IMG/VR virus record: IMGVR_UViG_3300043570_005602
Coordinates: 1 to 39,933 of that record
Reading direction: 5' to 3' (one strand)
DNA length: 39,933 nt
Origin: a virus
Of the stretch, positions 3,485 through 38,300 are shown one piece after another (within the stretch, counting starts at the first letter, position 1; every line of letters begins with the position of its first letter). The notes beneath the pieces are model-generated. The model was given only the letters and a program-made list of their open reading frames with translations. It was not told the DNA's origin and ran no database searches. The translations under genes and the position numbers were made by a program.

Positions 3485-4482
3485 GTGCGCTGCGCCCCTC
3501 CAACCTGCCAAAGCTGGCAGTGTGCCCCTGCTACGAGAGCAATCCCGTAGCCGGGCCCGCCGCCGAGCGCGGCACGCTGCTCGACACGGCATTCCGCGCC
3601 GAACTGCTCAAACTCGATGAGCGCCTTCTGCTCGCGAACAAACTCACCGCCGATGAGATCGCCGCCGTTTCGTGGTCGGTCTCGATGGTGCGGGCGATGT
3701 CAGGTCGCGAGCGTGTTCTCGCCCGTGAGGACGACTGCCGCGTGAAAATCCTCAACCTCACCGGCACGGCGGATGCCATCGTGCCCGGGAAGCTCAGCCA
3801 CTTCGATCTGAAAACGGGCGCACGGCGAAACTACCGCGAGCAGATGGCGTCGTATGCGCTCGGACTCATGGGCGCGCACTTCGCCTCATCGTGGACGGCA
3901 CACTTGCTCTTCTGCGACCAGCGGGAGATCGAGACGCACACGTTCACCTACGAGGAAGCGCATGCCATCGTCGATCAGGTGGTCAAGGCTTACAACGATA
4001 CCAAGAAGAAGCCTAACCCCTGCGAATACTGCTCGTGGTGCGCGAAAGCTGACACTTGTCCGGCGCGACTCGCGATGGTCGATCAAGCACTCGCGGTGAC
4101 GCAACCGGGCTTCGACTTCGATGCCCTGCTCGCTGATCCCGATCGACTCGGAGAATTTCTCGCTGCCAGTGCGGTGGTCGAGGAATTCCGCGAGCGCGCG
4201 AAGAAGATCGCGAGCGAACGACTCAAGACCGGCGGCCAGGTCCCCGGCTGGAAACTCGTCACTCGCAAGGGCAGTGAATTCGTCGATTGCCAGACCGTCG
4301 GCCACCACATCCAGCGCATCGGCTTCGGCCCCGTGCTCGCGGCTTACGGAAATTTATCCGCTGCCAAGTTCCGCGACCTCTGGAGTCAGCGCATGCCCAG
4401 TGAACTGCCCTTCCCGGAGGAGTCGGTGAAACACGCCGCACCCTCCACCTATCTCAAACAAACCAAAACCAAACCAAACTAA
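3481..4482 (+). CDS. PD-(D/E)XK exonuclease with Cas4/AddB-like cysteine cluster
   Basis: The core HFDLKTGARRNYREQMASY (DLK catalytic motif, then Q and Y) is the RecB/Cas4-type PD-(D/E)XK nuclease signature. Cysteines near the N-terminus (CPCYES) and the C-x2-C-x2-C-x5-C cluster CEYCSWCAKADTC after the nuclease core match the layout of 4Fe-4S cluster nucleases of the Cas4/AddB type; phage members are often annotated DUF2800. Length is 333 residues. The start overlaps the ATPase stop by 4 nt. The likely role is 5'-end resection of double-stranded DNA to feed the annealing protein encoded just upstream. Confidence 0.85.
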   Translation: MSALRPSNLPKLAVCPCYESNPVAGPAAERGTLLDTAFRAELLKLDERLLLANKLTADEIAAVSWSVSMVRAMSGRERVLAREDDCRVKILNLTGTADAIVPGKLSHFDLKTGARRNYREQMASYALGLMGAHFASSWTAHLLFCDQREIETHTFTYEEAHAIVDQVVKAYNDTKKKPNPCEYCSWCAKADTCPARLAMVDQALAVTQPGFDFDALLADPDRLGEFLAASAVVEEFRERAKKIASERLKTGGQVPGWKLVTRKGSEFVDCQTVGHHIQRIGFGPVLAAYGNLSAAKFRDLWSQRMPSELPFPEESVKHAAPSTYLKQTKTKPN

Positions 4483-4486
4483 GACC

Positions 4487-4900
4487 ATGCCATCCTATAC
4501 CTCATCCACACCCCAAGAACGTCCGGACCACGTAGAACCCGGAGATTACGAAGTCGAAGTCATCGATGCGATTGAAACCGTCAGCAAAGGCGGCCACGAA
4601 ATGATCGAGCTCAAGCTCAAAACATCCGCGGGCAGTTTGCTCTACGATTTCCTCGTGTTCATCCCCACGGCCTTCTGGAAGATCGATGCCTTTCGCGCCG
4701 CCACCGGAGAAGTGGTGACTCCCGATCAAGATGTCGAGATCACTGCCGACCACGTCGTGGGCCGCACCGGCACAGCCCGACTGACCGTCGAGGAATACAA
4801 CGGCAAGAAGCGCAACAAAGTCGCTGCGTGGATTGTCCCCACCTCGAAACCTAACACCAAACCTCAACCCGCACGCCGTAGTGAAAATGAACCCTTCTGA
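4487..4900 (+). CDS. DUF669-like phage protein (possible ssDNA-binding)
   Basis: The 137-residue protein has the layout of phage DUF669 proteins: an acidic beta-rich start (PGDYEVEVIDAIETVSKGG), the core MIELKLKTSAG, an alternating hydrophobic centre and a basic, proline-rich disordered tail. DUF669 genes usually lie between a Sak4/RecA-like ATPase and a helicase, as here, and are thought to bind DNA. The gene follows a CCAAA-rich leader (about 4456-4480) with no Shine-Dalgarno site. Family assignment is moderate; the binding role is inferred from context. Confidence 0.72.
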   Translation: MPSYTSSTPQERPDHVEPGDYEVEVIDAIETVSKGGHEMIELKLKTSAGSLLYDFLVFIPTAFWKIDAFRAATGEVVTPDQDVEITADHVVGRTGTARLTVEEYNGKKRNKVAAWIVPTSKPNTKPQPARRSENEPF

Positions 4901-6407
4901 TGTCATGGGCCTGCGCGCCTATCAAATGAAAGCCCGGCAGGACATTCACAGCGGCTTCGAGGAATTCGACCGTCAACTGGGGGTACTGCCCACCGGTGCG
5001 GGCAAGACGATTCTTTTCAGTCGCCTCGCTCTCGATTACCAACCACGGCGCACCTTGATTCTCGCGCATCGTGAGGAGCTCATCAGCCAAGCCGTGGACA
5101 AGTTGCGAAGCTCCACAGGACTCATCGCCCAGGTGGAAATGGGCGATGAGCGGGCCTCGCTCGATGCGCCCGTGGTCGTCGCCTCCGTCCAGACGCTCAT
5201 GCGCGAAAAACGCCGCGAGCGCTGGCCGCGCGATCACTTCGGACTCGTGGTGGTCGATGAAGCTCACCACATTCTGGCGGATAGCTACCTGAACACGCTC
5301 GGGCATTTTCATGACCATGCGAAAGTGTTAGGCGTCAGCGCGACACCCGACCGAGGCGACAAAAAAAACCTGGGCCGCTATTTCGAGAACATCGCCTGCG
5401 AGGTGACGCTTCTCGATCTCATCAGCCAAGGGTGGCTCGCACCGATCAAGGTGAAGACGGTTCCATTAGGGATGGATCTGCGCGGCGTGGGCACCAGCCA
5501 CGGCGACTACAGTGCCGATGACCTTGGTCACGCGCTGGAGCCCTACCTGGAGCAAATCGCCGATGTTTTGGTCGAGCACCGCCATCGCAAGACGCTCGTG
5601 TTTCTGCCCTTGATTGCGGTCTCGAAACGCTTTGCGGAAATCTGCCGTGAGCGTGGACTACTGGCCGAGCACGTCGATGGGCAAACCAGCGAAAGGCAAG
5701 CGACCTTGGAGCGATTCAAGCGAGATGAGACGCGCATCTTGTGCAATGCGATGCTACTCACCGAGGGCTACGATGAACCAAGCATCGACTGTGTGGTTTG
5801 CCTGCGCCCGACGAAAGTGCGTGCGCTGTATTCGCAAATCATTGGGCGCGGCACACGCATCTGGCCGGGTAAGGACCATTTGCTGGTTCTCGATTTCCTC
5901 TGGCAAGCGGAAGAGCACAGTCTGATGCGTCCGGCCAACCTCATTGCCGAGGACGAAGCGGATGCCAAGGCACTCACGGAAAAAATCGGCGGCGAGGGCG
6001 ACCTTGAAGAAGCTCGCGAGCAAGTGAACGCAGACCGCACTCGATCACTCACCGAGAGACTGCGTGCCAATCGCGCGCGCCGTGCCACCGTGCTCGATCC
6101 GCTGGAGCTTGCCGTGACGCTCAACGAGGCAGCGCTGGCCGACTACGTGCCGACGATGTCCTGGCAGTCACAGGTGCCCTCGGACAAGCAGTTGCAGGTG
6201 CTGGCCAACTTCGGCATGGATCCACTCACGATCCAATCGAAAGGCCATGCCTCGCTGATCCTCGACCGACTGATCACGCGTCGCAAGCTCGGCCTTGCCA
6301 CGCCCAAACAAGTCCGCGTGCTGCGCCGCTACGGCCACCAGCATCCGGAGACCGCCACCTTCGAAGAAGCGAAGGCATTCCTTCAACACCAATTCGCTAT
6401 CCACTGA
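4887..6407 (+). CDS. Superfamily 2 DEAD/DEAH helicase
   Basis: All main SF2 motifs are visible: Walker A LPTGAGKT (residues 34-41), DEAH (124-127 in VVVDEAHHIL), SAT (151-153 in GVSATPDRGD) and a motif VI region QIIGRGTRIWPG. A C-terminal extension of about 130 residues follows. I chose ATG 4887 (506 residues), which overlaps the preceding gene by 14 nt; ATG 4905 is possible, while 4833 would need a longer overlap. It is a ResIII/UvsW-like phage helicase, probably for replication restart, branch migration or origin opening together with the primase-helicase downstream. Confidence 0.9.
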   Translation: MNPSDVMGLRAYQMKARQDIHSGFEEFDRQLGVLPTGAGKTILFSRLALDYQPRRTLILAHREELISQAVDKLRSSTGLIAQVEMGDERASLDAPVVVASVQTLMREKRRERWPRDHFGLVVVDEAHHILADSYLNTLGHFHDHAKVLGVSATPDRGDKKNLGRYFENIACEVTLLDLISQGWLAPIKVKTVPLGMDLRGVGTSHGDYSADDLGHALEPYLEQIADVLVEHRHRKTLVFLPLIAVSKRFAEICRERGLLAEHVDGQTSERQATLERFKRDETRILCNAMLLTEGYDEPSIDCVVCLRPTKVRALYSQIIGRGTRIWPGKDHLLVLDFLWQAEEHSLMRPANLIAEDEADAKALTEKIGGEGDLEEAREQVNADRTRSLTERLRANRARRATVLDPLELAVTLNEAALADYVPTMSWQSQVPSDKQLQVLANFGMDPLTIQSKGHASLILDRLITRRKLGLATPKQVRVLRRYGHQHPETATFEEAKAFLQHQFAIH

Positions 6408-12041: not shown

Positions 12042-12848
12042 TTATGCAGCCAGTTTCTTCGCACGGGCTTTGTAGAATTTGCTGAGTCCGCGGGCGTCGA
12101 TGGCTTGGAAGAACCACTTCATGCGGTTCATCCCGACTCCGGTGTCCTTGGGTCGATTGCGAACGGTAGCGGCGGATTCCGCTGCGTCGAAGAGTCGAGC
12201 CATCAAGCGAACCCAGTTGGTGATTTTTTCAGGGCAGGTGGTTCCCGAGTGGTGACGAACTTCGATCGTCTGATGGCGGAAGTAGGATTGAATGTTGAGT
12301 TTGCGGTAGCGGCAGGGGTAGATCGCTCTCATGTCCTCGATGCTCTTACACTGGTCGATTAGGCGGAAGAGTTGAAGGCATTGTTTGCGGTGATTGTCGC
12401 CATCGATGATGCTGTGATCGAGGTTGGTGCGGCAGTAAGTGTTGTTGCTTCCCCGGCGGGAGAGCGGTTGAAACATATCGAGAACGTCCTCGAATTTGAG
12501 CCACATCTTGAAGATGTTCTTGATGGCTTTCAGGCTGATGCTGCGGGCGTCGAAATGGACATGAAGTCCGCAGCGTCTATCGACCTTGGCCCCTGCGGCT
12601 TCCAGTGCAGCGGCGGCAGTGTGTAGCTCCTCAAGACCGGCTTCGCCTTCGAGGATGGGAGACACCAGTTCGTATCCGCAGGAGCCGTCGCTCACGATTT
12701 TCCAGTGAGGTGTTGTTTGGTGGGTGTATCCCTCAAACTCGGCTTGAATGCCTGCGGAGCGGAGGCTCGTGAGGACTTGTTCTACGGTGACTGTGGAGAG
12801 GAATTCGATCTCGACTCCGAAGCGGCGGGACAGTGTTGGCGTTGTCAT
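12042..12848 (-). CDS. Amidoligase-family enzyme (PF12224-like)
   Basis: The 268-residue protein opens with FGVEIEF, continues with SDGSCGYELVSPIL and CGLHVHFDA, and later has TIEVRHHSGT: the acidic and His/Arg motifs of the COOH-NH2 ligase (amidoligase, PF12224) family of the glutamine synthetase/GCS2 fold. Members are predicted to make ATP-dependent amide bonds, on peptide tags or modified bases; few substrates are known. It heads a leftward three-gene operon driven from a regulatory region with two 35-bp inverted repeats. The substrate here is unknown; a link to the modification module 3 kb away is speculation. Confidence 0.85.
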   Translation of the reverse strand: MTTPTLSRRFGVEIEFLSTVTVEQVLTSLRSAGIQAEFEGYTHQTTPHWKIVSDGSCGYELVSPILEGEAGLEELHTAAAALEAAGAKVDRRCGLHVHFDARSISLKAIKNIFKMWLKFEDVLDMFQPLSRRGSNNTYCRTNLDHSIIDGDNHRKQCLQLFRLIDQCKSIEDMRAIYPCRYRKLNIQSYFRHQTIEVRHHSGTTCPEKITNWVRLMARLFDAAESAATVRNRPKDTGVGMNRMKWFFQAIDARGLSKFYKARAKKLAA

Positions 12849-14833: not shown

Positions 14834-15093
14834 ACGCAATCGAACGGAAACCTATTGTGAACGTCGAAGTCTCCAAATACCGCAAGGCTGATGGCTACGC
14901 CACGCGCTACTGGTCGGTGATCGTCAATGGCGAACTGCTCGCCGTGACGCTCTACCGCAAAGGCGCGGAGGCAGTAGCCCGAGCCATCACCAACCCCAAC
15001 AAAGAACTGTATGCATCATCCCTTGAAAATCCTACCCAGTCCCTCCGCGTGTCCGAGTCCACCGCCACTTGCGTGGAAACCAACATGCCCTGA
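14830..15093 (+). CDS. Small hypothetical protein
   Basis: An 87-residue protein with a beta-rich start (PIVNVEVSKYRKADGYATRY, then WSVIVNGELLAVTLYRKGAE) and a serine/threonine-rich tail; no family recognised. It is translationally coupled to the HTH gene by an ATGA overlap. The downstream AAA+ gene overlaps its 3' end in another frame by about 80 nt, which makes either its C-terminus or the AAA+ N-terminus uncertain. Confidence 0.6.
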   Translation: MNAIERKPIVNVEVSKYRKADGYATRYWSVIVNGELLAVTLYRKGAEAVARAITNPNKELYASSLENPTQSLRVSESTATCVETNMP

Positions 15094-15676
15094 TGACCTA
15101 TGCGGCCCCGCCGCCAATATCGCACGCCGATTGGTCGCCAAAGCGAGCAAACTGCATGACGCCCCCAACGTGCCGGTCAAGATCCTGCTCTACGGCCCAC
15201 CCGGTGTCGGGAAAACCAGCATCGCGGATATGATCGCCGAGACATTGGCCGGCACGCATTTCGCCATCGAGGAGTTCAACGGCAAGCTCGTGACGGTCGA
15301 GACCGTGAAACAATGGATGGCGAATCTTGCCTACCAGTCGATGTTCGGAGTCTATTCGGTGAAGATCATCAACGAGATGGATCGCTGCACGCGGGATGCA
15401 CAAGACTTGCTTCTAAGCTACCTCGACCGACTGCCTGCGGGGCGCGCCGTGATCGGCACCAGCAACCTGCAACTCGATCTACTCACCGAGCGATTTCAAA
15501 CACGCTTTCAGTCGATCAAGCTCGCCGCCCCGACCACGGAGGAAATCGCCGCCATGCTCACCAGTCACTGGCCGGTGGATCAAGCAACAGCACTGCGGAT
15601 CGCGGTCGGCAGTGGCGGGTGCGTGAGAGCGGCACTGGCTGATCTCGAATCCTGGCTGGATGTCTCCGGTTGTTGA
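15011..15676 (+). CDS. AAA+ ATPase (clamp-loader/RFC-like)
   Basis: Walker A is GPPGVGKTS (residues 62-70), followed by a Walker B-like KIINEMDR, a sensor 1 region VIGTSNLQLD and an arginine-finger-like TERFQTRF, the order of RFC/RarA-type AAA+ proteins. The stretch WKPTCPDDLCGPAANIARRL before Walker A resembles the conserved N-terminus of such loaders, so the early start is kept even though it overlaps the previous gene. Length is 221 residues. It leads the ParB/methyltransferase module and could remodel protein-DNA complexes for the modification enzymes; that is inference from gene order. Confidence 0.82.
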   Translation: MHHPLKILPSPSACPSPPPLAWKPTCPDDLCGPAANIARRLVAKASKLHDAPNVPVKILLYGPPGVGKTSIADMIAETLAGTHFAIEEFNGKLVTVETVKQWMANLAYQSMFGVYSVKIINEMDRCTRDAQDLLLSYLDRLPAGRAVIGTSNLQLDLLTERFQTRFQSIKLAAPTTEEIAAMLTSHWPVDQATALRIAVGSGGCVRAALADLESWLDVSGC

Positions 15677-15692
15677 CAGTGGCACACGAGCG

Positions 15693-16352
15693 ATGATGGA
15701 AGATTCTCCCAAAGCTCGCACACTTGCCAACGGCATCGAAGTCTGGTGCAGCTTCGACAAATTGGTGCCGGTCGGTGATCTCAAACCGAACCCTCGCAAT
15801 CCCAACACGCACCCGCAGCGACAAATCGAGTTGCTCGCGAAAAACATCCGCTACTTCGGTTGGAGACAGACGATTACCGTCTCGAATCTGACAGGGCTGA
15901 TTGTCTCCGGCCACGGTAGGTTGATGGCGGCCAAACACCTTGGCGTCGAAGTCGTGCCGGTGGACTACCAAGACTTTGCTAGCGAGAACGATGAACTTGC
16001 AGTGCTGGTCGCCGACAACCGCTTGGCAGAACTTTCTTCGGTCGATCTCAACGAGTTGGAAAAAATCGCCAGCGAATGGAAGGCCATCGACTTCGATACC
16101 ATCCTCGCCGGATTTGAATCAGCCGATCTGGAGGGCTTGCTCAATCCGGGCGGCAAAGACAACGAGGATGACGACGATGATGATCGTCACGACAAAGAAC
16201 TCGATAAGAGCGATGTCACCGTGGCCGTTGGCCTCTATCGATTCCGCATCACCCAAGAGGAATTCATCGCTTGGTGTGATCGTGTGAAGCAAGACGCCGG
16301 CTTCGACAAAGACAGCGTCCTCACTGAAATCCGCAGCCGCCTTGGACTATGA
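15693..16352 (+). CDS. ParB/Srx-fold protein
   Basis: A ParB N-terminal-like domain: LKPNPRNPNTHPQRQIELLA followed by a strand-turn and SGHGR (GHxR motif, residues 72-76), where the Arg/His pair binds a nucleotide or phosphate in ParB/Srx relatives. A very acidic linker (~160-178) precedes a short C-terminal helical segment. ATG 15693 is 20 nt after TTGACA (15673), whose TGA is the stop codon of the AAA+ gene; ATG 15660 would give an overlap. Phage ParB-like proteins beside methyltransferases often take part in DNA modification. The next gene carries two more ParB-like domains. Confidence 0.82.
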   Translation: MMEDSPKARTLANGIEVWCSFDKLVPVGDLKPNPRNPNTHPQRQIELLAKNIRYFGWRQTITVSNLTGLIVSGHGRLMAAKHLGVEVVPVDYQDFASENDELAVLVADNRLAELSSVDLNELEKIASEWKAIDFDTILAGFESADLEGLLNPGGKDNEDDDDDDRHDKELDKSDVTVAVGLYRFRITQEEFIAWCDRVKQDAGFDKDSVLTEIRSRLGL

Positions 16353-17863
16353 ACATTACCCTTGAACCTATCGACGCCATTCAACCATCGACCTACAACC
16401 CACGGTCGGCAGTGCCCGAGCGTCTCGACCTGATCGAACTGTCACTACGCAAGCTCGGTTTCATCGCACCGATCTTTGCGGATGCTGATGGAGAAATTCT
16501 CTCCGGCCACCAGCGGCATCTTGTGGCCTCGCGGATGGGCGCTACGCATGTCCCGGTATTCCGCACAAAGGCTCTCGACCTCGATCAGCGCAAGGCACTC
16601 AACATCGTCTTCAACCGGGCGACCAATGACTTTGACTTCAACAGCACTCCCGGACGCGTGACGAGCGAACTGAAATCTCTCGACATCGCCGCACTTGCCG
16701 ACCGCATCCCTGACAAGGAAGTCGGTGGCGACGGATTCCTGCGCTGCCTCAAGCCCGCGGAAGTTGCGGTCAAGGATCTATGCAAGGCAAATGCCGGTCG
16801 CTGGATCCAGTATGCTCGCAACCTCGCCCGCACGCTGCACCGCCACAATATCCTCATGCCCATCGTCTGCCGCGAGGACCTGACCGTCATCAATGGGATC
16901 GGTCGTTTGGAAATGCTTGCGGAAAAAGGTGCGGCCTTTGCTCCAGTCGTGTTCGTCACCGAGGAAGAAGCCGAATTTGCCCGGGCCATGATGAACTTGC
17001 TCTCGATGGACTTCGACATCCATACGCGTTACGCCGACATGCTGCGCTTCAACTCCTTCCGTCGCGCTCGGCGTGTTCGTCGCGAGCTTGGCAATGGCTT
17101 CATCTTTGCCACGCACGGCGCGAAGCCCTGCAAGGACTTTGACATTTCGCGAGCAGCGGATCGCACGCGCTGGACGAAGGAACACGGAACGACCATTCTC
17201 GATTTCGGTGCCGGTCACCTGACGGAAACATTTCTGCTGCGCCAGTCCGGCATCGATTGCACGCCATTCGAGCCGTATCGCCTCGGCCCAGGTGGCATCA
17301 ACAAAGCGGAGAGCATTGAGTTGACCCGCGAGTTCCTCGCGCAAGTAGCTGCTGGCAAAGAGTGGACGAGCATCTTCATCGCGAGCGTGCTCAATTCCGT
17401 GCCGTTTCGCGAGGACCGCGAACACATCGCCTGTCTCTGTTCGGCACTATGCAGACCTTTCACCAAGGTCTATGCCTGTGCTTCTTCCGCCGGGGAATCC
17501 GGTTGGCGTCAGGTGAATGGCAAGGCATTCATGAACGAAAGCAACGCGGGCAACATCGCGTTCCGTCTCGACTACGAACCGGGCATCCGCATCGGCGACT
17601 TTCAGGACAAACCGAAAGTGCAGAAGTATCACACGGTCGCCGAGTTCAAGGATCTTTTCGGCCAGTTCTTCCGCTCGGTGAAGGTGGAGGAATTTTCCAA
17701 CAACATCAATGCGGCCTGCGCCTCTGCTCGTCCCGTCGATCCCGCACGCCTCCGCGCGGCCATCGAGTTTGAGTTTGATCTGCCCTATCCTGATGGCACA
17801 CGCATGGATTTAGTGAAATGCGCCATGGACTCCTTTAGCAAATTCCTTCAGATTACCCTATGA
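16349..17863 (+). CDS. Double ParB-like / SAM-methyltransferase fusion
   Basis: This 504-residue protein has three parts. Residues ~5-75 are ParB-like (STYNPRSAVPERLDLIELSL, then SGHQR with GHxR at 53-56). Residues ~165-215 look like a second, degenerate ParB-like domain (PIVCREDLTVINGIGRLEML, with GIGR in place of GHxR). From ~278 a class I SAM-dependent methyltransferase core begins with motif I DFGAGH (285-290) and ASVLNSVP as a motif IV-like strand. There is no DPPY/NPPY or PCQ motif, so it is not a classical N6-adenine or C5-cytosine enzyme. It overlaps both neighbours by 4 nt and lies two genes from a CmoA-like protein, so its cofactor may be carboxy-SAM (inference). Confidence 0.8.
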   Translation: MNITLEPIDAIQPSTYNPRSAVPERLDLIELSLRKLGFIAPIFADADGEILSGHQRHLVASRMGATHVPVFRTKALDLDQRKALNIVFNRATNDFDFNSTPGRVTSELKSLDIAALADRIPDKEVGGDGFLRCLKPAEVAVKDLCKANAGRWIQYARNLARTLHRHNILMPIVCREDLTVINGIGRLEMLAEKGAAFAPVVFVTEEEAEFARAMMNLLSMDFDIHTRYADMLRFNSFRRARRVRRELGNGFIFATHGAKPCKDFDISRAADRTRWTKEHGTTILDFGAGHLTETFLLRQSGIDCTPFEPYRLGPGGINKAESIELTREFLAQVAAGKEWTSIFIASVLNSVPFREDREHIACLCSALCRPFTKVYACASSAGESGWRQVNGKAFMNESNAGNIAFRLDYEPGIRIGDFQDKPKVQKYHTVAEFKDLFGQFFRSVKVEEFSNNINAACASARPVDPARLRAAIEFEFDLPYPDGTRMDLVKCAMDSFSKFLQITL

Positions 17864-18312
17864 TTATACTACTGGATCTCAACTACACTTTGGTCGTAAA
17901 CAATGCCGCACGCGGCACCACTCCTGAGCGCATGGAGAAACGTCTCGCCGGGGAACAATACCGGCAATGGTTGGTGGAACTGGTGAGACCTCACACAGTT
18001 GTGCTCATCACCGCTAGACCAGTCACCTGGATGATCAAGACGCTGGATCGCATCGAAGAACAAACCGGGTGGCGTCCGCAGGATGCGTGTTTCGCGCCCC
18101 ACGGTTGGTGGAACCCACCGGCGATCAAAGAGCATTTGCTCAAGAAAGACGTGTTTCCCGTTCACGGGGAAAATTCCCGCTACGTCGCCATCGAAAGCAA
18201 TCCCCGGACCCGGGACATGTATGCCAAGTTCTCAATTCCCTCATTCTGGGTGACCAGCGAAGGCACATGCCTGACCGAGGGAACGCGCATCGTCAAGAGG
18301 CTGCCGCGCTAG
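17860..18312 (+). CDS. HAD-like protein with altered catalytic motif
   Basis: A 150-residue capless HAD-fold protein. Motif I is LLDLNYTL (D6-x-N8-x-T10), where the usual second Asp is Asn; motif II is VVLITARP; motif IV is VAIESNPRTRDMY with Glu in place of the usual Asp. HAD phosphatases need the second Asp as acid/base, so it may be weakly active, specialised or a binding protein. Phage base-hypermodification clusters commonly include HAD phosphatases. It is coupled to the ParB-methyltransferase gene by ATGA. Confidence 0.75.
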   Translation: MIILLDLNYTLVVNNAARGTTPERMEKRLAGEQYRQWLVELVRPHTVVLITARPVTWMIKTLDRIEEQTGWRPQDACFAPHGWWNPPAIKEHLLKKDVFPVHGENSRYVAIESNPRTRDMYAKFSIPSFWVTSEGTCLTEGTRIVKRLPR

Positions 18313-18457
18313 CCCAATCCACAATTCCTTGAATGTTGCCTCAAAGCGTGTCATGCTTGCTGCGAAGCGGAACGTTACGGACGTTAGAGCAAAGGTGAAA
18401 TAGGCACGAGCTCGCCGCTTCAACTCTATTTGCCACGTTGACATCGCACACGTCGGC
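18313..18457 (+). other. 145-nt gap with inverted and direct repeats before the CmoA-like gene
   Basis: This gap in an otherwise tightly packed operon has GAAGCGG (18364-18370) paired at distance with CCGCTTC (18415-18421), a direct repeat ACGTTA-N3-ACGTTA between them, and a TTGACA leader at 18438-18443. It may hold a promoter or mRNA structure specific to the CmoA-like gene; I see no convincing -10. Confidence 0.4.
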
Positions 18458-19180
18458 ATGAGCGATACGCAACGAGACGAGGTTATGCCGCGCGGTGCCT
18501 GGCAATTCGATCAGGAAGTCACCGCAGTGTTTGACGACATGCTGCAGCGCAGCATCCCGCAATACAATGCCATGCGACTGGTGACCTTCGAGGTTGGCCG
18601 GCGCTTCGTGCAACCGGGCACTGCCATCATTGATATGGGCTGCTCTCGTGGTCAGGCACTACTGCCCTTCGTTTCCCAATTCGGCGAAGCCAATGACTAC
18701 ATCGGCCTCGAAATCAGCGATCCCATGATTGAGGCCGCCCGCCAGAACTTCGCCTACCATCCTCACGGCAATCGCGTCACCATCCAGTCTGCCGACTTGC
18801 GCCGTGATTTCCCCGGTGTGACCTCCAGTGTGGTTCTCGCAGTGCTCACCTTACAATTCACGCCCATCGAATACCGCCAGCAGATCGTGCGCCGTGTTTA
18901 TGAGTCCCTGGCACCGGGAGGAGCTTTCATCCTCGTGGAGAAAGTGCTCGGAGCCACGGCCAAGATCGATGACGCATTCGTCGAGCTTTTCCTCAACATC
19001 AAACGCGAGAACGGCTACTCCGATAGTCAGATCGACCGCAAGCGTATGTCACTCGAAGGTGTGCTGGTGCCGGTGACCGCACACTGGAACGAGGAGTTGC
19101 TGCGTCAGGAAGGATTCACTTCCGTGGACTGCTTCTGGCGGCATCTGAACTTTGCGGGATGGGTGGCGGTGAAGTCATGA
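18458..19180 (+). CDS. CmoA-like carboxy-SAM synthase
   Basis: The 240-residue protein follows E. coli CmoA (247 residues, as I recall it) almost end to end: FDQEVTAVFDDMLQRSIPQY, motif I DMGCSRG (59-65), LTLQFTP, LAPGGAFILVEKV, and the diagnostic IKRENGYSDSQIDRKRMSLE (181-200) that in CmoA shapes the pocket for the carboxylate of carboxy-SAM. CmoA turns SAM plus prephenate into carboxy-SAM, normally used by CmoB on tRNA U34. No CmoB-like gene is visible in the window; the candidate user is the ParB-methyltransferase fusion. TTGACA lies 20 nt before ATG 18458 and the stop overlaps the small terminase gene. Confidence 0.85.
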   Translation: MSDTQRDEVMPRGAWQFDQEVTAVFDDMLQRSIPQYNAMRLVTFEVGRRFVQPGTAIIDMGCSRGQALLPFVSQFGEANDYIGLEISDPMIEAARQNFAYHPHGNRVTIQSADLRRDFPGVTSSVVLAVLTLQFTPIEYRQQIVRRVYESLAPGGAFILVEKVLGATAKIDDAFVELFLNIKRENGYSDSQIDRKRMSLEGVLVPVTAHWNEELLRQEGFTSVDCFWRHLNFAGWVAVKS

Positions 19181-19797
19181 GCAAATCAAGATCCACGGAA
19201 GATGGGAGGCCATCGATTGACCCGGAAGTCGCAGGAAAAATCCTGGACGCCGATTTTCAAAACATCGTGAAGAAAGTCGCGGCGGGCAAGCCACTCACGG
19301 TTGCTGAGAGGGCTCGGATTGAATCACGAGCAGCGGGGAGTGTGGAGACTCTGGCCTATGCCAAGACGATCGTGGAACTTGCCTCTGTGCTCGGTGTGAC
19401 TCGCCGCACGCTCTCCACCTGGCAGAAAATGGACGGAGCTCCCAAGGCCTTATCCAATGGCCTGTGGCCAGTTGCGGACTGGAGAGAGTTTGTGCGACTC
19501 AATGGCCTCAAAGCAGGCAAGGCACCGGTCGGCAACGAGGAGGCGCTCAAAGCGAGAAAGTTGCTCGCCGAGGTCGAAGAACGCGAACTACGGATCGCGG
19601 TGAAGAAGGGCGAATACGTCGCACTCACCAAGGTGCGCGAGGAATGGATCGGGTTGGTAGCCCAGGCGACTTCGATTCTGCGTGCCAAGTTCGAAAACGA
19701 GTTGCCACCCGTGCTATCGGGGCTCGATGCGACGGGCATTCAGAAAGAATGTCGTCGTGCGATTGATGAGGTGCTGCAAGTCCTTCATGAAGGCTGA
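19177..19797 (+). CDS. Terminase small subunit (Nu1-like)
   Basis: The 206-residue product has a helix-turn-helix (ELASVLGVTRRTLSTWQKMD), WPVADWREFVR, then a long charged helix (EALKARKLLAEVEERELRIA) matching lambda Nu1-type small terminases, where the helix mediates assembly. It recognises the packaging site and recruits the large subunit. ATG 19177 overlaps the CmoA-like stop as ATGA, so the modification module and late genes are transcriptionally joined. It is the first late gene; the large subunit gene follows after 26 nt. Confidence 0.85.
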   Translation: MSKSRSTEDGRPSIDPEVAGKILDADFQNIVKKVAAGKPLTVAERARIESRAAGSVETLAYAKTIVELASVLGVTRRTLSTWQKMDGAPKALSNGLWPVADWREFVRLNGLKAGKAPVGNEEALKARKLLAEVEERELRIAVKKGEYVALTKVREEWIGLVAQATSILRAKFENELPPVLSGLDATGIQKECRRAIDEVLQVLHEG

Positions 19798-19823
19798 TGA
19801 TGTGTTGACGTTCGCGCAGGGGC

Positions 19824-21644
19824 ATGGATGTCCTCAAGGAAATTTGGCGTGAAGCATGGCAACCTCCCGACCGTCGTCCCGCATGGCAATGGTGCGAGGA
19901 CCACATCGAGGCGATTCCATACTCACCGAATCCCGGTCGCTTTCGTTCGGAAAACTCGCCGTGGATTCGTGAAGTGATGGAGGCGTTGGTGGATCCTCGC
20001 ATTCGCCTCGTTTCGATCATCGCCTCAGTCCAGTCATCCAAGACGACGGCCCCGGAGCTCACGCTTTGCTACATCATTTCCAACCTGCCCGGGCCTGCCT
20101 TGTGGCTCGACCAGACCGATGAAGATGCACGCGACTATTCCGAGTCGCGCTTGCAAAAGCTGTTCGATCAATGCGAACCGGTAGCCCGATTGATGCCTAC
20201 GGGTGTTCACCGCCACAAGCGCAAGAACAACGCGATCCAGTTCACCAACGGCATGACGCTCTGGATTCTGGGCGCGCACAACAAGACCAACCTCCAGCGA
20301 CGTTCGATCCGCTGGCTCATCGGGGATGAAACGTGGCGCTGGCCCCAGGGACACATGGCGGAAGCGGAAGCTCGTGTCACGGCATTCGGTTGGCTGGGCA
20401 AGTGCATCTTCATGAGCCAAGGCGGCGAGGAGGATGACGACACGCACCGCAAATTCGAAACGACTGACCAACGAGAGTGGACGTTTGCCTGCACCGAGTG
20501 CGGACATCGCCAACCATTCAAATGGGAATGCGTCGAGTGGAGCAAGTCGGCCCGGGATGACGCGGGGGAATGGGACTTCGATGAAGTTCGTCGAACCACG
20601 GCTCTGCGCTGCGAATCCTGCAATCACTACTTCAATGACAGCGAGCGCACCCGGCGTGAACTGAACGCCACTGGAGAGTTCATCAAGAAGAATCCGAAAG
20701 CATCGGCAGAGAACGTTGGCTTTCACTGGAACGCCCTCTGCGCCATGAGCTGGGGGCAACTTGCGGAACTCTATCTGCGTGCCAAGGCAGCAGCGAGGAA
20801 GGGAGACGTCAGTCTGCTCCAGCAGTTCTATCAAAAACGCCTTGGCCTGCCATGGCGCGAATACGTTGAGGACTACAAATTGGAGATCGTCAAATCCGGC
20901 TACAAGCGCGGCGAATCCTGGGAAGAAGAGGCGGCGATCGATCCGAAGACTGGTCGCATTCTTGCCGCTCCGCTGCCCGAGCGCAAGGGACTCATCCCGC
21001 TGCGTTTCATCACCGTGGACTGCCAGATGGACCACTTGTTTCTGGTCGTGCGCTCATGGTCCGCAGACGGATCAAGTCGTCTCATGTGGAACGAGCGCAT
21101 CCTCACATTCACCGACATCGAGGTCATGCAAGAACGCTTCGGCGTCCATTCGAGTTTGGTGTTTCTGGATGCCGGCTACGCCACTTACGATGTCTATCGC
21201 GAGTGTGCGAAGCGTGGGTGGGTGGCGCTCATTGGCGACCGTCGCCCGGTCTATCCGCACAAAGGACGCGACGGCAAAACGATTCAGCGATTCTATTCGC
21301 CCCGGCGCAAGGTCGTGCTCTCGCATCGCCAGCATTGCCACGTTCACTACTGGAGCAACCTCAACATCAAAGACACGCTCGCTCGCTTGCGTCGCAACCA
21401 AGACCCGAGCCAAGGCCCTACCTGGGAAGTACCCGATGACATCGAGGATGACTATCTCGCTCAAATGGAAAGCGAGCAGCGAGTAAAGGAAAAGGGCAAC
21501 TGGATGTGGAAGCAGATCGGCTCCCGACCGAACCACTACTTCGATGCCGAGAGCATGCAAGCGGCGGCGGCTACGATGCTCAAGATCGTCGGGCGCGAGG
21601 CCGTCAACGCTGCCCCGGTTGACACCTCGCCGGAGGAGTCATGA
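19824..21644 (+). CDS. Terminase large subunit (GpA family)
   Basis: The 606-residue protein is a GpA-type large terminase: an adenine-binding N-terminal part (NSPWIREVMEAL), P-loop region SVQSSKTT in place of a classical Walker A, and LWLDQTDEDARDYSE. A zinc-finger-like insert follows (CTECGHRQPFKWEC ... CESCNHYF), then the RNase H-like nuclease half (RFITVDCQMDHLFLVVRSW, VFLDAGYAT). It cuts concatemers and drives packaging, as in lambda A, so the phage probably has defined cohesive ends. TTGACG lies 19 nt before the start. Confidence 0.92.
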   Translation: MDVLKEIWREAWQPPDRRPAWQWCEDHIEAIPYSPNPGRFRSENSPWIREVMEALVDPRIRLVSIIASVQSSKTTAPELTLCYIISNLPGPALWLDQTDEDARDYSESRLQKLFDQCEPVARLMPTGVHRHKRKNNAIQFTNGMTLWILGAHNKTNLQRRSIRWLIGDETWRWPQGHMAEAEARVTAFGWLGKCIFMSQGGEEDDDTHRKFETTDQREWTFACTECGHRQPFKWECVEWSKSARDDAGEWDFDEVRRTTALRCESCNHYFNDSERTRRELNATGEFIKKNPKASAENVGFHWNALCAMSWGQLAELYLRAKAAARKGDVSLLQQFYQKRLGLPWREYVEDYKLEIVKSGYKRGESWEEEAAIDPKTGRILAAPLPERKGLIPLRFITVDCQMDHLFLVVRSWSADGSSRLMWNERILTFTDIEVMQERFGVHSSLVFLDAGYATYDVYRECAKRGWVALIGDRRPVYPHKGRDGKTIQRFYSPRRKVVLSHRQHCHVHYWSNLNIKDTLARLRRNQDPSQGPTWEVPDDIEDDYLAQMESEQRVKEKGNWMWKQIGSRPNHYFDAESMQAAAATMLKIVGREAVNAAPVDTSPEES

Positions 21645-30056: not shown

Positions 30057-30473
30057 ATGGAAAAATCTCGAATCTCTGGGCAAAAGGAACCTATTCAAGG
30101 GTATAGTGGGTCTTGGGATAACTATGTTGAGTGGTTAAGCATTGAAGATGCCATGACACTTGAGCCTCCGAACGATCCATACGACGATGATCTACTCACA
30201 CGATTGAAACAGAGCATGCAGAGAGATGGATGGGTCGGCCCACCGCTTCTGATGCAAATCTTCGATGACGGGGAATATCTTCTACTGCAAGGAAGTCACC
30301 GTCTGGCCGCCGCAGCAAGTGTTAGATTAACGCGCGTCCCATTTCTCATAATTCGTGGCGGAGAGTTCGGAGAAAACAGCCCTTTTGAGACAGCCTATTT
30401 GAGGGCAAAAAGAGTGGATGCTGAATTAGCACTGGCCGTTTCCGAAATCTCAGACGAAAATCATCACAGTTAA
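30057..30473 (+). CDS. ParB/Srx-like moron protein
   Basis: The 138-residue protein has a ParB N-terminal-like core (YDDDLLTRLKQSMQRDGWVG, then LLLQGSHRLAAAASVRLTRV) with GSHR as the GxxR motif. It is more AT-rich than its neighbours, has its own possible promoter, and splits the normally adjacent GT and tape measure genes, which marks it as a moron (cargo gene) rather than a tail gene. It is unlike the ParB-like protein at 15693 outside the motif region. Function unknown; nucleotide-dependent regulation or defence is plausible. Confidence 0.75.
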   Translation: MEKSRISGQKEPIQGYSGSWDNYVEWLSIEDAMTLEPPNDPYDDDLLTRLKQSMQRDGWVGPPLLMQIFDDGEYLLLQGSHRLAAAASVRLTRVPFLIIRGGEFGENSPFETAYLRAKRVDAELALAVSEISDENHHS

Positions 30474-36274: not shown

Positions 36275-36390
36275 TGGCGGGTTTGACTTTAATAGGGGGC
36301 GGGAAATCTCCAATTACCGACAAAATGCCGCTTAAAAGTTCGAATAAATGGCAACAATTTACCCAAAAGTGAAATATTTTATCTTTTTTG

Positions 36391-36419
36391 TTGCAAAAGT
36401 ATCTCGTCATAGCTAGGAT
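36391..36419 (+). promoter_or_regulatory. Promoter of the cargo pair
   Basis: TTGCAA (36391-36396), 17 nt, and TAGGAT (36414-36419), each matching 4 of 6 consensus bases, lie in an AT-rich gap before ATG 36430. The gap 36275-36429 shows no other clear element and no good terminator. Confidence 0.5.
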
Positions 36420-36429
36420 TTCTTTCGTG

Positions 36430-37107
36430 ATGTCCGACTCAAATAAATGTATTCTATTGAACAGCGTAGCTCTTGCTTTCCCCCTCGGAGGGGTAAGCGA
36501 ACTAACCAGGAAAATCAGTGCGAGCTACCAGATGGCCTACGACCGGGTGGTTGATGATCACAAAATCTCACCCAATGACGTCAAAATTGCAGTCGGACAC
36601 AAACGCAGGGATTACATCAACACCGATCTAATTCAGTTTGCTGAACAATACCCAAATCTTGTTACTTGGGCCGCAAAAATGGAGGGAGAAGAAGGTTACA
36701 ATAATAGGGTAGAGCTTGAGATCGGTAACTTTCTTGTGACTCACCACCATCACACGAAATCGGATAAAATGCCTGAAAATTTCATCAATCTCTCTGCGCT
36801 ATACAACCAATCAAACGCTAGCCTGAATGACGATTTGCAACTCGAACTATTCCCATCTAAGGAGGTCGTCGGGAATGAGTATCAGAGCAAATTGCTGAAC
36901 TTAATTATTTTGCACGAAAAGAGCAGCGAAGGCCTAGCAGAAGTCGGCAATATCGAATTCGTTTTCCCCAGAAAAAAGACAAAGTTCATCAGCCTTGGTG
37001 TTCATGAACTTGTTAAGAAGCAGGGCGAAATTGCGGATCTAGCTGGGGAGGACTTATTCGATTTCGAGCGTAAAGTTGCCGAAGAATTTAGGAGGATGAT
37101 CGGATGA
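36430..37107 (+). CDS. Unknown partner of the XRE-ImmA/IrrE protein
   Basis: A 225-residue soluble protein (LNSVALAFPLGGVSELTRKI, then DVKIAVGHKRRDYINTDLIQ, FLVTHHHHTKSDKMP) with an unusual run of four histidines; no family recognised. It is AT-rich, overlaps the XRE-ImmA/IrrE gene by 4 nt, and the pair has its own promoter between late genes and integrase, a typical cargo site. By analogy with paired XRE-peptidase systems it may be a toxin or effector controlled by the second gene, but the sequence does not show this. TTG 36388 is a longer alternative start. Confidence 0.75.
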   Translation: MSDSNKCILLNSVALAFPLGGVSELTRKISASYQMAYDRVVDDHKISPNDVKIAVGHKRRDYINTDLIQFAEQYPNLVTWAAKMEGEEGYNNRVELEIGNFLVTHHHHTKSDKMPENFINLSALYNQSNASLNDDLQLELFPSKEVVGNEYQSKLLNLIILHEKSSEGLAEVGNIEFVFPRKKTKFISLGVHELVKKQGEIADLAGEDLFDFERKVAEEFRRMIG

Positions 37108-38300
37108 GAATAGGAGTGGACAATTTCGATTCTAACAGGCTCACCGAAGCACTTCAATTTCGGATGATGACAAAGTCCACACTCGCCCGAGAAATTGAAG
37201 CGAGTCCCGCTGCAATTGCCAGTTACTTGGCATCAAGTAGAAAGCCCAGTCCAGAAGCATTTGAAAAGATTAGCCGTGTGCTTGATTTGCCCAAAAAATT
37301 CTTTCTTGCACCTTCGGGTTCCGTTGGGCTTGAATCCAGCGTGAAACAGTGGAGATCGATCTCCAATCCAAGAAAGTCGGATCGGTTGCGCGGGGAGTCG
37401 CTATTGAGTTGGCAGGTTGAGATCTACTCAATATTTCGTGAAATCTTTGACCTTCCGAGATTTGAACTTTATGACGTCCTTCCTCAATTTGGTGTGCCTG
37501 ACGATTTCAGGGAGATCACAAATGAGCATATCGAAGATGCCGCCAAAAAGTTGCGTGACTATTGGAAAATGGGTGAAATGCCTATCAATAATCTCCTGCG
37601 AACCGCTGAGAAATCAGGAATTGTAGTAGGTGAATTCAACTTGAAAGTTCCTCAACTTGATGCAGTTTCAACTTTCTTCAATGGAGTTCCTTATGTTCTT
37701 TTGAATACGTTTAAGCAATCTGGGGCACGTGCACGCTTTGACCTTGCCCACGAAATCGGACATTTAATATTGCACCGTTCAGTTACTAAAGAAGATTTAT
37801 GTGGCGATGACGGCAAGGCAATTTACGACAGATTGGAAGAGCAAGCTCATTGGTTTGCCGGTGCACTCCTCTTGCCAGCGGAAAGATTTGCGAATGATCT
37901 CTGGGCTCCAACCTTCCGCTGCTTTGAGGATATGAAGGCCAAGTGGAAAGTATCAATTCAGGCAATGATGCATCGTGCGCATGATTTGAATCTCATCACT
38001 GACAAGCAGTACAATTGGTTGAATATTGCTTTGAGTAAAAAGAAGGCAAGGATCATCGAGCCTTTGGATGACGTGATCACGCGCGAATCTATCAGGCTTT
38101 TTCCTAAATGTTTTGAGCGCTATGAGCAAGACTGCGGCAGGTGCCAAATGCTTGATTTGGTTAACCAACTCCCATTCTCCGAAAGAGTTACCGAAGAATT
38201 GTGTGGGCTCGGTTTCGGATACTTCGACGGATTGCGGAGTGAGGGGCATGCAGATAGAGATAATCTCATCACAGTCGATTTCAAGTTGCCGCGAAGTTAG
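37104..38300 (+). CDS. XRE regulator fused to ImmA/IrrE metallopeptidase
   Basis: The 398-residue protein starts with an XRE HTH (LAREIEASPAAIASYLASSR), followed by a linker and an ImmA/IrrE domain with HEIGH (216-220) in FDLAHEIGHLILHR and EEQAHWFAGALLLP as the next conserved helix. Such fusions occur in stress-response and toxin-antitoxin-like pairs and in phage cargo. It is distinct in sequence from the split XRE plus ImmA pair at the left end, and its AT-rich composition indicates separate origin. It may repress its own operon and activate or degrade its partner. Confidence 0.88.
   Translation: MRIGVDNFDSNRLTEALQFRMMTKSTLAREIEASPAAIASYLASSRKPSPEAFEKISRVLDLPKKFFLAPSGSVGLESSVKQWRSISNPRKSDRLRGESLLSWQVEIYSIFREIFDLPRFELYDVLPQFGVPDDFREITNEHIEDAAKKLRDYWKMGEMPINNLLRTAEKSGIVVGEFNLKVPQLDAVSTFFNGVPYVLLNTFKQSGARARFDLAHEIGHLILHRSVTKEDLCGDDGKAIYDRLEEQAHWFAGALLLPAERFANDLWAPTFRCFEDMKAKWKVSIQAMMHRAHDLNLITDKQYNWLNIALSKKKARIIEPLDDVITRESIRLFPKCFERYEQDCGRCQMLDLVNQLPFSERVTEELCGLGFGYFDGLRSEGHADRDNLITVDFKLPRS

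Follow-up and report, generated by a model that had tools for sequence, protein, structure and literature searches.

Carboxy-S-adenosylmethionine (Cx-SAM), the product of CmoA, is used by several described pathways. The closest to the locus considered here is the CmoA-CmoX-CmoY system of Synechococcus phage S-B43 (Yang et al., December 2025; PMC12783734). Its main text describes a three-enzyme route: SpCmoA, the CmoA of the phage, supplies Cx-SAM (this synthase activity was measured), CmoX forms 5-carboxymethylcytosine, and CmoY attaches glycine. CmoX is a homologue of C5 cytosine methyltransferases with an SPPC motif and an arginine (Arg350) for the carboxylate, and ParB-domain proteins are found on many CmoX contigs. 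The same main text reports that no carboxymethyltransferase candidates for N6-adenine or N4-cytosine were found alongside CmoA. In the CmoA-CmoB pathway, Cx-SAM is used to make uridine 5-oxyacetic acid (cmo5U) in tRNA (PMC3663124, PMC4482062). In two peptide natural-product pathways a CmoA homologue is joined by a dedicated carboxymethyltransferase (TglE with TglF, MccS with MccB-CTD; review PMC10491745). MccB-CTD has no significant similarity to CmoB, and thus provides a precedent for recruiting unrelated methyltransferase domains as Cx-SAM users. This report presents a four-gene module in the 39,933-base IMG/VR virus record IMGVR_UViG_3300043570_005602 (the window, analysed at its full length), in which a CmoA-like gene follows a gene for a ParB-methyltransferase fusion.

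The four genes are read here as a nucleic-acid carboxymethylation module in which the fusion replaces CmoX, with a probability of roughly 0.6. In the proposed mechanism, the CmoA-family enzyme would carboxylate S-adenosylmethionine (SAM) with host prephenate, and the class I domain of the fusion would place the carboxymethyl group on a base; the likeliest target is the DNA of the phage itself. The fusion would thereby take the place of CmoX, the C5 enzyme of the S-B43 system. The ParB domains of the fusion and the separate ParB protein would engage DNA, and the HAD protein, which resembles the T4 polynucleotide 3'-phosphatase in altered form, would have an accessory role, working on nucleic acid or nucleotides. 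The core genes are as follows:

15660-16352, plus strand: ParB-domain protein, first gene of the core module (phrog_498 and phrog_620 ParB; PADLOC MTase_II ParB part, E 3e-24)
16349-17863, plus strand: ParB-ParB-class I methyltransferase fusion, predicted Cx-SAM-dependent transferase (phrog_5475, full length, 328 bits)
Within the fusion, plus strand: ParB-like segment 1 at about 16349-16633, ParB-like segment 2 at about 16757-16999, catalytic domain at about 17156-17860
17860-18312, plus strand: HAD-fold protein, Pnkp-3'-phosphatase-like, second catalytic Asp replaced (DLNYT; phrog_32036)
18458-19180, plus strand: CmoA-family protein, predicted Cx-SAM synthase (TIGR00740, 166.9 bits; phrog_4752, 248 bits)

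Fusion sequences were collected by scans of IMG/VR and of bacterial genomes, and from annotated phage and plasmid records. Among 139 distinct fusions with at least 3 kb of downstream sequence (55 after dereplication), a CmoA-like gene lies just downstream in 137, or 54 of the dereplicated 55; the scans kept the best 80 matches each and used conserved peptide patterns, and remoter fusions without CmoA may have escaped. This linkage is far beyond chance, since CmoA-like genes are present in 82 of 50,697 phage records. The loci L165 and L167 do not count as counterexamples: both are prophage edges at which chromosomal genes follow the HAD gene. The sequence-only reading had named fusion homologues lacking a CmoA-like gene as evidence that would count against it; there are nearly none, the one case among 55 lying where a degenerate prophage ends. 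Of 56 dereplicated loci, 55 have a ParB gene immediately before the fusion. Fusion relatives are found in phages or prophages, with hosts from many phyla. The gene pair recurs in other phages: Gordonia phage Evaa, Pseudomonas phage SM1, Aeromonas phage HJ05, and a phage-like plasmid of Rhizobium all keep the module order beside terminase genes. The fusions of these four elements share 33-47% identity with that of the window. The Rhizobium element, plasmid p7 of Rhizobium bangladeshense (109 kb), carries the module followed by an HJ05/SM1-like gene layout with ribonucleotide reductase and SAM decarboxylase genes, and looks like a phage-plasmid.

As in S-B43, a phage CmoA homologue is paired with a phage transferase, CmoB is missing, and ParB-domain proteins are often nearby. 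Unlike that system, the window module lacks CmoX and has instead a ParB-ParB-class I fusion without a catalytic Cys motif; fusion modules also rarely include a CmoY-like ligase and commonly include an altered Pnkp-like HAD protein. C5-methyltransferases of the CmoX family (PF00145) are absent from the window and from 47 of 50 fusion records (IMG/VR records among them may be fragments), and the S-B43 and Yoloswag controls were found. None of the three matches has the SPPC or the motif X Arg of CmoX: the C5 enzymes of records G067 and G068 have PCQP, with Asn at the motif X position, and the G070 enzyme has no catalytic Cys and ends before reaching motif X. The fusion itself has neither SPPC nor an Arg350-type motif X. 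Because CmoX is missing from the fusion records, the fusion is most likely a separate Cx-SAM-dependent transferase. A CmoX or CmoY hidden in the window was also considered and ruled out, as PF00145 is absent and there is no asparagine-synthase-like gene of the CmoY kind. HJ05 and the Rhizobium element do have such genes, in keeping with a carboxylate handle in these two. In record L282, which also holds a fusion module, a C5-methyltransferase-like frame (4264-5865) has SPSY without the catalytic Cys and is broken before motif X.

Two phages show CmoA in other settings. In Erwinia phage Yoloswag (9992-11650), CmoA is followed by the asparagine-synthase-like gp17 and, about 14 kb on, by a PF00145 frame with SPPC; Erwinia jumbo phages probably carry a CmoA-CmoX-CmoY system. 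Alcaligenes phage Afa-NA1 (625-12521) has an Arg199 CmoA-like gene, no PF00145 match, and two annotated DNA adenine methylases nearby; it is outside the listed fusion matches and is a possible third context for phage CmoA.

The sequence-only reading had seen no CmoB-like gene, and CmoB (TIGR00452) was found neither in the window record nor in 35 fusion-bearing phage records. Among 28 module-carrying bacterial genomes, only Photobacterium has CmoB, and only Photobacterium has a CmoA over the cut-off; this set includes incomplete metagenome-assembled genomes, so that the absence of CmoB is strong only in aggregate. Other CmoA matches in host genomes are of the module type where positions were compared (e.g., G045 against L190). 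A tRNA pathway through host CmoB is thereby ruled out for 27 of the 28 hosts, and a tRNA role of the module is unlikely because these genomes lack CmoB. The module thus resembles the CmoA-CmoB pathway in having a CmoA family member with the Arg for the Cx-SAM carboxylate, and differs from it in that the phages and all tested host genomes but one are without CmoB and the fusion is not CmoB-like. The view of the CmoA-like protein and the fusion as a synthase and its user is strongly supported by all of this: the two genes are almost always linked, in hosts of many phyla, CmoX and CmoB are both missing, and the hosts are without the cmo5U pathway.

The CmoA-like protein (240 amino acids) contains IKRENGYSDSQIDRKRMSLE, which the sequence-only reading had taken as the CmoA signature, and matches TIGR00740 over its full length (E 6e-49). 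Because its score is below the curated equivalog cut-off of 193.3, it is classed by sequence as a member of the CmoA family and not as an equivalog. It matches the E. coli CmoA structure 4gek (E 3e-36) and is 34% identical to E. coli CmoA. Arg199 of the E. coli enzyme binds the carboxylate of Cx-SAM (Byrne et al., PMC3663124) and aligns with R196 of the window protein; the equivalents of Tyr39, Asp62, Ser66, Asp117, and Glu164 are also kept in the alignment. The sequence-only reading had asked whether the carboxylate-binding arginine is present; it is, though this is not decisive since the active SpCmoA has Glu at that position. For the same reason, loss of Arg199 in relatives was rejected as proof against Cx-SAM synthesis. 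The window protein departs from E. coli at three positions (Glu for Asp89, Ile for Asn90, Val for Asn132), at all of which the active SpCmoA departs as well (E, L, and L at 89, 90, and 132); SpCmoA further has Glu199 and Lys207. Judged by alignment, the window protein is therefore closer at position 199 to the E. coli pocket than the proven phage enzyme. The window protein likely makes Cx-SAM.

The fusion belongs over its full length to phrog_5475, whose label is "unknown function." In Pfam it has one ParB_N domain and a weak Methyltransf_23 match. Its N-terminus matches the ParB_N of phage methyltransferases (phrog_498, E 1e-24; PADLOC MTase_II, E 7e-15), and the class I methyltransferase domain spans residues ~270-504. 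The second ParB-like segment (NGIGRL, residues ~137-217), in line with the double ParB of the sequence-only reading, is our interpretation of the sequence, to which a weak profile match (5k5a, residues 154-200) lends support. The absence of classical DNA-methylase motifs, noted in the sequence-only reading, holds: [DNS]PP[YFW], PCQ, or PPC occurs neither in the window fusion nor in any of 49 members. The fusion thus shares its type of N-terminal ParB domain with ParB-fused phage DNA methyltransferases and differs from them in a catalytic domain without the N6/N4 motif (DPPY/NPPF) or the C5 motif. Across 52 aligned fusions the invariant residues include D285FGAG289, E308P309, V347xN349S350xP352F353xxD356R357, F405, E410, and P422K423xQ425K426; of these, R357, K423, and K426 are candidates for the cationic residues facing the carboxymethyl group of Cx-SAM. 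The AlphaFold model of the fusion (predicted local distance difference test, pLDDT, 89.6; predicted template modelling score, pTM, 0.84) retrieves ParB/Noc structures and class I small-molecule methyltransferases (CcbJ, glycine N-methyltransferases) in Foldseek. Because the template modelling (TM) scores are low, this comparison of models settles the fold class of the fusion and not its substrate. The TglE/TglF and MccS/MccB-CTD pairs likewise combine a CmoA homologue with a dedicated carboxymethyltransferase; unlike them, the module belongs to a phage, and its catalytic domain was compared with theirs through PDB sequence and fold searches only.

The HAD protein, noted as altered in the sequence-only reading, does have DLNYT in place of the DxDxT of motif I. 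The second Asp of DxDxT serves as the general acid/base. Within the family, Asp6, Thr51, Lys90, and Glu112 are invariant and the second Asp is nearly always Asn; with Asn in place of the general acid/base, the protein may lack normal phosphatase activity or have an altered one. The AlphaFold model (pLDDT 92.3) has as its top Foldseek match the T4 Pnkp 3' phosphatase (TM 0.70/0.74), and this predicted fold fits work on nucleic acid. The likeness to the T4 Pnkp 3'-phosphatase domain (5uj0, 2ia5) lies in the fold (TM ~0.7), whereas the HAD protein has DxNxT rather than DxDxT, has no kinase domain, and is 17% identical. HAD family members are present in 26 of 30 diverse module loci, sometimes upstream, and a search of 50,697 phage records returned a sole match, in the module carrier Gordonia phage Evaa.

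The fusion-linked CmoA-like proteins (74 after dereplication) fall into several classes by the residues at 199 and 207. Arg199 partners are those of the window, Bacillota, Bacteroidota, and Cyanobacteria; partners with Glu/Asp199 and Arg207 occur in Alphaproteobacteria and Photobacterium; Ala199 forms a further class; and SM1-like partners have Thr/Ser/Asn199 with Trp/Phe207, mostly with Gln replacing Glu164. A cation at both 199 and 207 is seen in 0 of 78 sequences, but a swap of the cationic residue from 199 to 207 is suggestive only, because in the tree it amounts to no more than one or two independent changes. Partners of the Thr199 class may form Cx-SAM by means of another pocket, or may have another product.

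For its parts, the proposed mechanism carries different degrees of confidence. That the fusion uses Cx-SAM is quite probable, and that its substrate is phage DNA is probable, the latter because its ParB domains are common to phage DNA methyltransferases and the module is positioned beside terminase. The base and atom modified, and the role of the HAD protein, are likewise what we infer. Protection from restriction would be the expected benefit by analogy, because carboxymethylation blocked HhaI in the S-B43 study (PMC12783734, main text). Several observations weigh against this mechanism. The fold of the catalytic domain is closer to small-molecule class I methyltransferases than to DNA methyltransferases, and since the TM-scores to these are low, an RNA, nucleotide, or protein substrate is possible. 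Some fusion partners need not make Cx-SAM, because the SM1-like proteins are without Arg199 and without a charged residue at 207, and many are also without Glu164. No covariation of active-site or invariant residues of the fusion with CmoA partner type was found, the invariant residues being the same in all classes, which is compatible with one shared cofactor or with none shared. Most fusion records are without a CmoY-like ligase, and titles and abstracts on SM1-like phages yielded no report of a restriction phenotype or modified base for any member.

Three other explanations account for part of the same evidence. The module might carboxymethylate RNA (tRNA or mRNA) rather than DNA, with the Pnkp-like HAD protein in RNA modification or repair: the original role of Cx-SAM is in tRNA modification by CmoB (PMC4482062), the HAD protein resembles both T4 Pnkp and the bacterial Pnkp1 of the Hen1 repair complex, and the catalytic domain is not DNA-methyltransferase-like. 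This is unlikely given the missing CmoB, the 27 of 28 hosts without the cmo5U pathway, and the ParB domains and terminase neighbourhood, which favour DNA. SAM is the default cofactor of class I methyltransferases, and the fusion could be an ordinary SAM-dependent DNA or RNA methyltransferase beside a CmoA-like protein that serves another end, such as being a sink that keeps SAM from defences that depend on it; the main text of PMC12783734 mentions, as a possibility, that CmoA depletes SAM. A sink needs no near-obligate pairing with one transferase family across phyla, and this alternative is quite unlikely.

It is very unlikely that the fusion transfers from another SAM analogue, made by the CmoA-like partners or at least by the ones lacking Arg199. 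The carboxylate site does vary (Arg199; Glu199 with Arg207; Thr199 with Trp207 and mostly Gln164), and Glu199 partners score low against the first CmoA profile (80-99 bits). However, the proven SpCmoA itself has Glu199 and Lys207, the constancy of the invariant fusion residues across partner classes suggests one cofactor, and the window protein has Arg199.

What the sequence-only reading observed is confirmed, and its interpretation is supported in part. It had proposed natural carboxymethylation of phage DNA. PMC12783734 has already established that general idea; the new element is the fusion in the part of an alternative transferase. The main text of that paper does not describe a ParB-class I fusion in this role. 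Should carboxymethylation by the fusion be correct, phage modification of nucleic acid with Cx-SAM would have at least two unrelated transferases, phrog_5475 would gain a concrete biochemical hypothesis, and there would be a further enzyme able to put a carboxylate handle on nucleic acid. The family is a non-C5 candidate where the S-B43 study, in its main text, found none for N6-adenine or N4-cytosine. More tentatively, and at less than even odds, the fusion may be the first of a new class of natural DNA carboxymethyltransferases in phages of many bacterial phyla, acting off cytosine C5 (e.g., on an exocyclic amine) to give a base not yet described. The prediction can be addressed in the cultivated phages Evaa, SM1, and HJ05.

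The record encodes integrase, repressor, replication, packaging, and structural proteins. Its closest relatives in bacterial genomes are located in Verrucomicrobia (Akkermansiaceae, Verrucomicrobiaceae), where the identity of full-length fusions reaches 94%, and for this reason the host is likely a member of the Verrucomicrobia. Gene order from 15011 to 21644 is AAA ATPase, ParB, fusion, HAD, CmoA-like, and the terminase small and large subunits, the flanking genes being:

15011-15676, plus strand: AAA ATPase, clamp-loader-like, upstream neighbour apparently in the same operon (Pfam AAA, E 1e-10; phrog_5846)
19159-19797, plus strand: terminase small subunit, where the module adjoins the packaging genes (phrog_57, E 3e-11)
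19824-21644, plus strand: terminase large subunit, gpA type (PF05876, 132 bits; PF20454, 90 bits)

Frames overlap by 4 to 22 nucleotides at AAA/ParB, ParB/fusion, fusion/HAD, and CmoA/terminase small subunit (4 nucleotides for ParB/fusion and fusion/HAD), and a 145-nucleotide gap precedes the CmoA-like gene. Because of the overlaps at ParB/fusion, fusion/HAD, and CmoA/terminase small subunit, the genes read as a single operon. The AAA ATPase gene is kept in only 6 of 30 diverse module loci. The module region has no Rfam or tRNA matches, and a defence-system search there yields just the ParB/methyltransferase similarity. An Amidoligase_2 gene (PF12224, 136 bits; 12042-12848, minus strand) was rejected as a CmoY analogue: it is on the opposite strand and occurs in most window-like Verrucomicrobia phages and in no other fusion-bearing phages.

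Among the structural genes, a small protein (30057-30473, plus strand) appears ParB/Srx-like by eye only (LLLQGSHRLAAA). Near the integrase end (36388-38300, plus strand), two genes are similar to RmrT (93 bits) and RmrA (400 bits), a PADLOC defence pair, and probably form a defence system that the phage carries.

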